Shown here piece after piece: positions 19,792 through 22,442 of a stretch of 40,904 nucleotides of DNA. The position numbers were made by a program, and so were the translations under genes. The notes under the pieces were generated by a model, which worked only from the letters and a program-made list of their open reading frames with translations, did no database searches and had not been told where the DNA came from. This DNA is from Clostridiales bacterium (GTDB lineage Bacteria; Bacillota; Clostridia; Oscillospirales; Oscillospiraceae): positions 1-40,904 of the forward strand of contig JALETK010000096.1 in NCBI GenBank assembly GCA_022781505.1. Reading direction: 5' to 3'. Within the stretch, counting starts at the first letter, position 1. Each line of letters starts with the position of its first letter.

Positions 19792-19832
19792 CAGGCGTGC
19801 TGCAAAGGTGTTCCTGCAGCACGCCTGATTTT
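19792..19832 (+). terminator. Rho-independent terminator after ftsH
   Basis: CAGGCGTGCTGCA-aaggtgttcc-TGCAGCACGCCTG-ATTTTTA. Confidence 0.85.
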
Positions 19833-19894: not shown

Positions 19895-21343
19895 CTATGC
19901 CGCAGGCCGGTTTACGACGCCGACAAACAGGGGAAGGCCTTCGGCGTTGGTGATGGCAAAGAGGAAGGGCCGGTCCAGGGTGAAGTCTATCTCCTCCTCC
20001 GGGGCCATTCCTTCGCCCGCCGTCATCATGACGGTATAGGCTGCGGCGGTCAGGCCCTCCTCGTCAATGGTGACCCGGGCGGCGTGTTGGACCCGGGAGA
20101 GGTAAATCCCCGCCGTGTCCTCCGTCATGGGAGAGAAGTCGGAAACCCCACTGTCAAACACGTCGGTGACGCCCAGGGCCTGCAGCCCTCCGGATAGCTC
20201 CAGATCCGAGGATACGTCAAATTTGGGCAGGGCCAGATTGACCGTCAGGTATTGGCTGTTCTCCTGGCGGCTGCTTTCGGACAGCAGAAAGTCCGTCAGC
20301 CCGGAGCCTGCCAGCAGTGCGTCCGGGGTGACGCCCGCCTCCGGCAGAATCAGCCACATGCTGCCGCCGTTTTCAATCCCCTGGGCCACGGCGGAGAAGC
20401 CCTCGCCCCGGTAGAAGCTCCGGGCAGTGCTCTGATGCATGAAGTCGCAGGTGATGTCTCCGGAAGGGGTGTGGAAGAGGCCGGGCTCCGTCATGGCCTT
20501 GCTGAAATCGTCTGTCCACTTCCCCCGGAAGTAGACTGTGGCAGCCAGGGCCAGAATGGTTTCCGGGCTCATTTCCAGATCGGAGGCCTGCTCCTCCAGG
20601 AGCCCCCCGGTCTGGGCGTTGAGCCAGTCCCGCAGGGCCTGGTTGAAATCCTGGGAGCCCATGGCCCCCCGGTAGGAGGAGGCGTAATAGACCTGGGCCA
20701 GGGTGTCCATGGTCTTCTGGTTGAAGTTTACATCCTGGCTCAGCCACACGGAGCCGGCGAGGATGCTGGTGAGCACGCCGTCGTCGCAGTAGTTTGCCTG
20801 CCAGAGGGCGGTGGCCTGGGCCCGCAGGGCCTCCAGATCCGCCGCACCCAGAAGGGACAGAATCTGTGCCCGGCTGTTTCCGTCGGTCAGCTCCGCCAGC
20901 ATGGCAAGGGCCATATAGACATTCAGAGGGGAATAGACCCGGTTCTCCTCCCCGCCGGTGAGAAACTGCCGGGTGGAGCGGGCAAAGAAGTCCTCCAGCC
21001 CACTGGCATACCCCTCGGGCTGGTTCCGGAGGGCCTGCCGGCTTTCCCACCAGGCATCGAAGGCCCGGGAATAGCCGTCGCTGTCAAATTCCCCGTCGGA
21101 GGCTTCAAAGGCGGACATGTCCGGGTAGGGGGCCATGTCCGGGTACCGGGCCTCGCTGATGGCGTAGGCCGTGGTCTGCATGGGCCCGCCCACCAGGGCG
21201 CAGACCAGGAGAACCACAGCCAGGGCCGCCGCCACCGTTCCAATCCACAGGGGGCGGCGCCTCTTGCGCTTTGCCTGGAGGGCCTGGGTGATATGTTCGT
21301 CGCTGACCTCATCCAGGGCTTTTGCAATGTAGTCTTCGTTCAT
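19895..21343 (-). CDS. Membrane-anchored serpin (serine protease inhibitor family) with sigma-associated N-terminus
   Basis: Serpin signatures: NRVYSPLNVYMALAMLAELT, ILALAATVYFRGKWTDDFSKA, VNLALPKFDVSSDLELSGGLQALGVTDVFD, VTIDEEGLTAAAYTVMM (RCL hinge), LDRPFLFAITNAEGLPLFVGVVNRP. One N-terminal TM (LWIGTVAAALAVVLLVCALVGG). Confidence 0.93.
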   Translation of the reverse strand: MNEDYIAKALDEVSDEHITQALQAKRKRRRPLWIGTVAAALAVVLLVCALVGGPMQTTAYAISEARYPDMAPYPDMSAFEASDGEFDSDGYSRAFDAWWESRQALRNQPEGYASGLEDFFARSTRQFLTGGEENRVYSPLNVYMALAMLAELTDGNSRAQILSLLGAADLEALRAQATALWQANYCDDGVLTSILAGSVWLSQDVNFNQKTMDTLAQVYYASSYRGAMGSQDFNQALRDWLNAQTGGLLEEQASDLEMSPETILALAATVYFRGKWTDDFSKAMTEPGLFHTPSGDITCDFMHQSTARSFYRGEGFSAVAQGIENGGSMWLILPEAGVTPDALLAGSGLTDFLLSESSRQENSQYLTVNLALPKFDVSSDLELSGGLQALGVTDVFDSGVSDFSPMTEDTAGIYLSRVQHAARVTIDEEGLTAAAYTVMMTAGEGMAPEEEIDFTLDRPFLFAITNAEGLPLFVGVVNRPAA

Positions 21344-21894
21344 ACGGTTACACCTTCCTTTTCCAAATAGGTTTTGAGCCTGCCCCGGAGGCGGGACAGC
21401 CGCACGGAGACGGTGTTCTCCCGGAGCCCCAGCTCTGCGGCAATGGTTCCCACAGGGTCGGAAAACCAGTACCGCCGCAGGAAGATGGCCCGGTTCTCCG
21501 GGTCCAGGGTGTCCAGAAAGGCGTCGATGGCGCGTCCCAGCTCCCGGGCGGAGCAGACCTCCTCCATGGATGGCCCGGGAAGACAGTCCTCCAGCTCCGC
21601 CAGGGGCAGGTCAGGGAGCGGCCCACGCTTCTGGGCCCGGTTGGCCCGGCGGCGGTTCAGGGCGGTGTTCCGGGCAATCCGGCACACGAAAGCTGCCAGG
21701 GGATCAGGCCGCCGGGGCGGGATGGCATTCCAGGCTCCGAGATAGGTGTCATTGGCGCACTCCTCCGCGTCCTCGCGGTTTGCCAGAATGTTGTGTGCGA
21801 TTTGGAAAATCAGCTTTCCGTATTTTGCCGCCAGCTGTCCGATGGCCGTTTCGGACCGGGACCAGAACAGGGCAATGATTTGAGCATCCTCCAT
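21340..21894 (-). CDS. ECF-type RNA polymerase sigma-70 family factor
   Basis: YGKLIFQIAHNILANREDAEECANDTYLGAWNAIPP (region 2), LDTLDPENRAIFLRRYWFSDPVGTIAAELGLRENTVSVRLSRLRGRLKTYLEKEG (region 4); ATGA overlap with the serpin start. Confidence 0.93.
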   Translation of the reverse strand: MEDAQIIALFWSRSETAIGQLAAKYGKLIFQIAHNILANREDAEECANDTYLGAWNAIPPRRPDPLAAFVCRIARNTALNRRRANRAQKRGPLPDLPLAELEDCLPGPSMEEVCSARELGRAIDAFLDTLDPENRAIFLRRYWFSDPVGTIAAELGLRENTVSVRLSRLRGRLKTYLEKEGVTV

Positions 21895-21910
21895 CTCTGT
21901 CTCACCTCCT

Positions 21911-21950
21911 TCTGCCTATTACCTACCGGTTCGGAAGGGAATCTTACAGT
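21911..21950 (-). promoter_or_regulatory. Possible ECF-type (autoregulated?) promoter upstream of sigma gene
   Basis: Minus strand ACTGTAAGATTCCCTTCCGAACCGGTAGGTAATAGGCAGA directly upstream of the AAGGAGG SD; resembles bipartite ECF promoters by eye only. Confidence 0.3.
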
Positions 21951-22109: not shown

Positions 22110-22442
22110 TCAGTCCACCACGTCTGCGAAGTCCTCTTCATCGGCAAAGTCGCTGCCGGGCTGGGGGGCCACATTTTTCTGGCTGCGGAGCTCTCCAATC
22201 CGGTGGAGGGAGGCCTCAATCCGGCTCAGCTGCTCGTCGTAGGCGGGGCCGGAGGGAGCTGTGCCGGAGAGCTTATCCTGATAGTACAGCTTGCCGATGG
22301 CCTGGTAGGCGGTCTTCACCTTGTCCTCCTCGGCGGCGATGGATATGGACAGCTTGGCGGTGGTGGCTGCCCGCTTGGTGGCGGCAGCGGCGGTCTGGGC
22401 CACGCTTCCTGCGCGGTTCAGAAAATCATCGAAATTGCTCAT
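22110..22442 (-). CDS. Small coiled/helical hypothetical protein with acidic C-terminus
   Basis: Complete ORF MSNFDDFLNRAGSVAQTAAAATKRAATTAKLSISIAAEEDKVKTAYQAIGKLYYQ..., SD AAGGAGG, own terminator. Confidence 0.75.
   Translation of the reverse strand: MSNFDDFLNRAGSVAQTAAAATKRAATTAKLSISIAAEEDKVKTAYQAIGKLYYQDKLSGTAPSGPAYDEQLSRIEASLHRIGELRSQKNVAPQPGSDFADEEDFADVVD

Follow-up and report, generated by a model that had tools for sequence, protein, structure and literature searches.

A membrane-anchored serpin as the possible anti-sigma partner of an extracytoplasmic function sigma factor in a Clostridiales bacterium

In contig JALETK010000096.1 of a Clostridiales bacterium (assembly GCA_022781505.1, family Oscillospiraceae), analysed here as one stretch of 40,904 nt that we call the window, a gene for an extracytoplasmic function (ECF) sigma factor is followed on the minus strand by a gene for a membrane-anchored serpin, and the two genes overlap. 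Why should a serpin be tied to a sigma factor in this way? A preliminary description, made from the sequence alone, had considered either that protease attack on the serpin is passed on to the sigma factor or that the sigma factor simply sets the dosage of the serpin. The reading that we favour, with a rough probability of 0.55, is that the operon is an autoregulated switch of an ECF sigma factor and its anti-sigma factor, in which the outer domain of the anti-sigma factor is an inhibitory serpin, in the manner of RsiV of Bacillus subtilis.

The sigma-serpin pair and its occurrence in relatives

The sigma factor gene (21340..21894, minus strand) encodes 184 residues comprising sigma2 and sigma4 only, as in the ECF type (Pfam Sigma70_r2, 4e-13, and r4_2, 9e-9; TIGR02937, 1.8e-22), and the solved structure nearest to it by sequence is CnrH (4cxf). 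The serpin gene (19895..21343, minus strand) encodes 482 residues, and its start overlaps the sigma stop in the tetranucleotide ATGA at 21340-21343, which is common to both. We found the two minus-strand open reading frames and their overlap where the preliminary description had placed them, and the N-terminal sequence that it quoted for the serpin is exact. The layout that it claimed (a cytosolic segment, one transmembrane helix and a serpin domain) agrees with our analysis as well, in which a basic segment of 31 residues precedes a transmembrane helix at about residues 33-52 (residues 33-51 at 21191..21247, minus strand) and the Pfam family Serpin (PF00079) is matched at 3.7e-60 over residues 131-480, corresponding to positions 18-370 of the 370 of the profile. 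The source genome, a 96%-complete assembly of 2.47 Mb, has a single serpin, and its genus, a large one, has gut Clostridia as its named relatives.

Serpins related to that of the window were present in 46 of the 136 genomes of the genus, from which about 60 loci were fetched and inspected for gene order. At 33 loci, in 31 genomes, an ECF sigma gene overlaps a serpin gene whose product shares this N-terminal segment and transmembrane helix, with overlap lengths of 4-14 nt that are partly set by the choice of start. A scan of genomes with organism names gave at least 546 relatives, of which the best 80, mostly from Lachnospiraceae, Oscillospiraceae and unplaced Clostridia, were kept. Their loci hold 86 serpins: the fused form coupled to a sigma gene accounts for 50 of these, 21 are lipoproteins with no sigma gene in the vicinity, seven have a module-like N terminus and no adjacent sigma gene by the criterion used, and eight are other forms. 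Across the family, strong matches were obtained in 127 of 401 genomes and 51 of 106 genera. The survey of this architecture that had been suggested earlier thus shows a widely conserved pair, and the pairing of sigma factor and serpin is not due to chance. Some of the relatives are in records resembling cultured isolates (Pseudoflavonifractor phocaeensis An507, Flavonifractor sp. An112, Flavonifractor sp. AGMB03687 and Cuneatibacter sp. NSJ-177), so the system is open to experiment.

Two variations on the pair were also observed. At one locus (L213, 2525-5440) a single sigma gene is followed by two tandem serpins, both with the anti-sigma-like module, possibly two sensors for one sigma factor. 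At three other loci (L068, L069 and L070, in genomes G094, G086 and G097, respectively) all that is left in an open frame of a serpin from the same clade are its 60-90 C-terminal residues, the remnant of L069 being preceded by a sigma gene and a 419-residue frame with the module; these would be broken or diverged copies.

The cytoplasmic segment as a candidate sigma partner

The serpin begins with MNEDYIAKALDEVSDEHITQALQAKRKRRR, after which the transmembrane helix follows. In this anti-sigma-like segment (residues 1-31; 21251..21343, minus strand) two short helices are predicted, at residues 3-11 and 15-24, followed by a basic stretch, and AlphaFold models both helices at a modest predicted local distance difference test score (pLDDT) of about 52-66. 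A profile built from the segment and the transmembrane helix has matches in 108 of the 136 genomes of the genus. We fetched 42 loci of this module, picked mainly from the non-serpin matches and comprising 44 proteins, and all 44 are encoded directly behind an ECF sigma gene, with overlaps of 1-11 nt. These proteins are 160 to 984 residues long and Pfam matches are rare among them (one each to a beta-propeller, DUF4179, an RHS-repeat and WD40). The source genome itself has only one other sigma factor of the same group, on contig C151, and this too is followed by a module protein. Judged from sequence, therefore, the segment is an exchangeable sigma-partner module common to many non-serpin membrane proteins, and the preliminary description was right in seeing here a membrane protein of the kind that follows ECF genes with a varying sensor domain. 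At locus L067 (3093-5973) a sigma factor of the same group is followed by nearly the same N-terminal module, joined there to an outer domain of 700 residues that matches an RHS-repeat weakly and is not a serpin, and then by apparent lipoprotein genes.

To what class of anti-sigma factors could such a segment belong? Pfam and NCBIfam gave no anti-sigma family match for it, and weak matches such as that to PF09716 were put down to noise from the composition of the transmembrane helix. A class I anti-sigma domain, zinc-binding or not, occupies about 100 residues before the transmembrane helix and does not fit a segment of 31 residues with no Pfam anti-sigma match. The layout of class II (CnrY-like), namely a helical cytoplasmic part of less than 50 residues, one transmembrane helix and a gene adjoining the ECF gene, is the one found here. 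DUF4179 had no match among 47 fused serpins, that of the window included, at an E-value of 0.05; five N-terminal segments matched it weakly (best E-value 0.06), and one non-serpin module protein at 9e-8.

We then considered the correlation of distance matrices over 68 fused sigma-serpin pairs. Sigma factor and segment correlate at 0.78, and at 0.71 as a partial correlation that controls for the serpin, a value reached in 0 of 1000 permutations. For sigma factor and serpin domain the value is 0.47 and the partial one 0.10 (72 of 1000 permutations as high), while in the genus alone the two correlations are 0.76 for the segment versus 0.21 for the serpin. For comparison, in a published set of ECF and anti-sigma factors the correlation was 0.82 for real pairs and 0.5-0.6 for non-interacting controls (PMC7406223). 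The transmembrane helix correlates with the sigma factor at just 0.31, although segment and helix adjoin each other within one gene, and from block to block of the serpin domain the correlation with the sigma factor has no gradient; simple linkage, which we considered as a cause, therefore does not explain the co-variation of sigma factor and segment and was ruled out. No other result speaks as strongly for an anti-sigma role as this apparent co-evolution, which falls short of proof of binding, and on such comparisons of sequences we regard the putative anti-sigma role of the N-terminal segment as well argued.

The serpin as a possible sensor and the alternative explanations

The extracytoplasmic serpin domain extends over residues 113-482 (19898..21007, minus strand). 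In the AlphaFold model (mean pLDDT 84.7) the two short cytoplasmic helices and the transmembrane helix are followed by an ordered extension and the serpin fold, for which Foldseek retrieved tengpin, antithrombin, PAI-1 and conserpin (best E-value about 1e-29), the best PDB matches including latent and cleaved serpins. The hinge of the reactive-centre loop, DEEGLTAAAYT (residues 427-437; 20033..20065, minus strand), follows a pattern, DEEGxTAAAxT, that is near invariant among relatives: the mean column entropy is 0.42 bits at residues 427-436 versus 1.34 in the serpin core. Of the features of inhibitory hinges (E at P17, G at P15, T or S at P14 and small residues at P12-P9), the E, the G and an AAA are present and near invariant, whereas P14 is L in the window serpin and V, L or C in most relatives, and P9 is Y or F in most. 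The loop that follows, VMMTAGEGMAPEEEI (residues 438-452; 19988..20032, minus strand), contains the most variable columns of the region (440-442, entropy above 2.7 bits). An invariant hinge next to a variable loop has the look of inhibitory serpins adapting to proteases.

Two observations bear on the target, which may be a host or a microbial protease. Counted from P17, P1 is Glu444 in the window serpin and Ala in a genus subgroup, in a register that is uncertain because the loop is longer than in alpha-1-antitrypsin. In the source genome we obtained 23 matches to the subtilase family (PF00082), an unusual number, about 15 of them strong and in open frames of 1300-2650 residues, probably a large set of giant proteases (G000, L281-L286; on contigs C90, C165, C177, C43, C162, C68 and others). 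Across the genus, the presence of any PF00082 gene was not associated with the fused serpin (15 of 31 versus 41 of 105, p 0.41); genomes with at least four subtilase genes have the fused serpin in 6 of 10 cases (p 0.0095, with a cut chosen post hoc and uncorrected). Endogenous subtilases were dropped as candidate targets, the genus-wide link being weak and post hoc. Siropins inhibit human neutrophil proteases (PMC5127057), which for the window serpin serves as an analogy only.

Outside the transmembrane helix there is an AxA-type motif, AYA (residues 59-61, A59-Y60-A61; 21161..21169, minus strand), a possible site-1 or signal peptidase motif, which opens the ordered extension IxEAxYPxMAPYP; the ordered region of the model begins with it, from residue 61, and a strand is modelled at residues 60-63. 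A motif of this type comes after the transmembrane helix in 39 of 47 fused relatives; in several of the fused relatives the linker is long and AxA is missing close to the helix. The earlier claim that the serpin has no cleavable signal is thus not secure. Constitutive cleavage, though possible, is not indicated, since lipoprotein relatives, which need no such site, retain the segment around AxA and since the model shows it as ordered. In B. subtilis, the membrane anti-sigma factor RsiV binds and inhibits lysozyme, and lysozyme binding exposes a site near its transmembrane helix to signal peptidase, after which RasP frees sigma-V (PMC5014341, PMC6066255). By analogy, the AxA site, possibly masked, could be a signal peptidase site. 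An RseP homologue is present.

About 50 nt ahead of the sigma start there is a two-part ECF-promoter-like element, TGTAAGAT-N14-GTAGGTAAT (21918..21948, minus strand), whose footprint is common to relatives. In the genus its first half peaks at -60 to -51, with 20 matches in 45 loci and no more than 4 in each of the other 10-nt bins, and related ECF-like elements are found upstream of other sigma lineages. This is the only exact copy in the source genome; a relaxed motif search of that genome for a regulon beyond the operon gave two sites with three mismatches versus two in a reversed control, and across relatives no conserved third gene follows the pair. As the element is unique and a third gene is missing, the output of the circuit seems to be the serpin itself, and the circuit would make chiefly sigma factor and serpin if the element is the promoter of the sigma factor. 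The sigma start is preceded by a ribosome-binding site, AGGAGG (21905..21910, minus strand), and 3' of the serpin gene, ahead of a convergent ftsH-like gene, there is a terminator-like hairpin of 15 pairs (19792..19827, minus strand). Upstream of the sigma gene we also noted a minus-strand open reading frame of 110 residues at 22110-22442 with no Pfam match.

Based on the RsiV precedent, the AxA motif, the RseP homologue and CnrH as the nearest solved sigma factor, we propose a receptor that resembles RsiV and whose outer domain is a serpin. On the computed evidence, the N-terminal segment of about 31 residues would be an anti-sigma module that holds the sigma factor and probably belongs to class II (CnrY), with its two short helices, the sigma factor would drive its own operon from the upstream element with more serpin as the main product, and the outer domain has a hinge of the inhibitory type and a variable loop. 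A protease outside the cell would attack the reactive loop, and the serpin would trap it and snap into the relaxed form, or be overwhelmed and clipped; signal peptidase would thereby gain access to the juxtamembrane AxA (site 1), RseP, as the site-2 protease, would then cut the transmembrane helix, and the freed sigma factor would cause more of the protease trap to be made. We infer that cleavage of the serpin is the signal. That the suicide reaction itself is the transmembrane signal, with loop cleavage and insertion unmasking the juxtamembrane site and one sigma factor released per trapped protease, is a tentative claim to which we give somewhat less than even odds. In a variant, the serpin would guard the stalk, and the sigma factor would be freed only once the protease exceeds the capacity of the serpin.

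A second serpin clade of the same genus bears on these possibilities, because there the order is often sigma gene, small module protein and lipoprotein serpin (12 loci among those inspected), and the small protein carries the same N-terminal module as the fused serpins. In one member of this clade (L088), module and serpin form a single protein that is coupled to the sigma factor. On a tree of 115 serpin domains there were at least 12 changes between fused and lipoprotein states, 6 of them forced by well-supported branches, as counted by a quick method that does not distinguish gain from loss; the serpin therefore became attached to the sigma-partner module, or detached from it, on many occasions. 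Among the lipoprotein forms we also observed three tandem serpins of one clade with differing reactive loops and no sigma gene nearby (L032, 1608-5940, genome G133; the same three in L203), and, at L087, L089 and L090, a form of about 550 residues with a long N-terminal extension between a lipoprotein-like signal and the serpin domain, again with no sigma gene nearby.

The sister loci lend support to the dosage alternative of the preliminary description, according to which the segment is an anti-sigma factor, the sigma factor sets the serpin level and the serpin domain is cargo, the signal (envelope damage, another protein or direct proteolysis of the stalk) acting on the stalk or the transmembrane helix. 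With a separate small anti-sigma protein and a lipoprotein serpin, the serpin can be pure output; serpin domains were swapped repeatedly onto the sigma and segment module, and the linkers between the transmembrane helix and the serpin are often long and variable. We nevertheless consider this alternative rather unlikely, since the fused form is frequent and has persisted among widely diverged relatives, with one fused case in the second clade, since fusing cargo to a protein that is destroyed for signalling would be a waste unless the link matters, and since the juxtamembrane segment is conserved and ordered in the model. Several observations do weigh against the RsiV-like receptor. Close serpins are also lipoproteins without a sigma gene nearby, with at least the 12 switches of state mentioned, so that a serpin works without being a sensor, and in the sister arrangement it is output only. 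The window protein is without DUF4179, and the masking device of RsiV is therefore not the same here. In addition, most fused relatives have V, L or C at P14 in place of the usual T, and start codons were picked near the sigma stop, so that the overlap lengths are partly by construction.

The residue at P14, together with the AlphaFold hinge, which is a strand as in a relaxed-like state, would suit a serpin that traps no protease and acts as a ligand-binding or conformational switch, as in hormone-carrier serpins. The near invariant, Ala-rich P12-P10 of the hinge and the highly variable loop after it form the usual inhibitory pattern, and we hold such a non-inhibitory sensor to be improbable. 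Still less credit can be given to ordinary export, in which residues 1-61 would be a long signal peptide cut after AYA and the sigma factor would control the expression of a secreted serpin with no anti-sigma role. The frequency of AxA-type motifs shortly after the transmembrane helix (39 of 47) speaks for it; the segment, however, co-varies with the sigma factor at 0.78 and is common to non-serpin proteins that are always behind a sigma gene, the AxA region is conserved in lipoprotein relatives, where export cleavage at that point is impossible, and in several fused relatives, with long linkers, there is no AxA near the transmembrane helix.

Comparison with known systems

The physiological role of many prokaryotic serpins has been called enigmatic (PMC8233489). 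If the proposed receptor is real, the sigma-coupled serpin of many gut Clostridia would gauge the protease pressure of the gut and answer it with more inhibitor, and the principle of RsiV, in which one protein both senses and inhibits the attacking enzyme, would extend from lysozyme to proteases. If the suicide reaction were the signal, the gene switch would in effect count proteases, and a large class of serpins from gut bacteria would gain a physiological role. We found no report of a serpin, an ECF sigma factor and an anti-sigma factor together in the open-licence literature, and subscription papers may hold a prior mention; judged by title or abstract, the open-licence papers combining serpin with 'anti-sigma factor' concern cellulosomes, expression in Bifidobacterium or unrelated matters. 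A phylogenetic survey mentions membrane-anchored prokaryotic serpins and describes no anti-sigma role for them (PMC8233489).

With RsiV and sigma-V (ECF30) the pair shares an ECF sigma factor and a membrane anti-sigma factor in one operon, a short cytoplasmic part, one transmembrane helix, a signal peptidase-type site beside it, a site-2 protease of the RseP/RasP type and, as proposed here, an outer domain that is both binding partner and inhibitor of a host hydrolase attacking the cell. It differs in the outer domain, a serpin in the window and DUF4163/DUF3298 in RsiV, in the operon, which has no lysozyme-resistance gene and the serpin as its only further product, and in the target, presumably a serine protease, with which the reaction would be irreversible. 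The CnrY type (class II) has in common with the window protein a very short cytoplasmic part, predicted in the window protein as two helices, and one transmembrane helix (PMC7406223), and the window sigma factor is, among solved structures, nearest in sequence to CnrH, the partner of the two-helix anti-sigma factor CnrY. CnrY, however, belongs to a metal-sensing system, whereas the window protein has a large serpin as its outer domain, and we found no sensor gene apart from it.

RsgI and SigI of Clostridium thermocellum involve anti-sigma factors with one transmembrane helix, exchangeable outer sensors and RseP-dependent release (PMC12203970). The single helix and the exchangeable sensor domains recur here; SigI, by contrast, is not of the ECF type used here, the outer domains of RsgI sense cellulosome substrates and not proteases, and no match to RsgI_N was obtained. 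Siropins and the Group T serpins (miropin, tengpin and the B. longum serpin) resemble the window serpin in the serpin fold, in their occurrence in gut bacteria and in a hinge of the inhibitory type, and differ from it in that a sigma-coupled cytoplasmic module is not described for them (PMC5127057, PMC8233489). The kind of sigma/anti-sigma system proposed is already known, and what is new in it is the serpin ectodomain.
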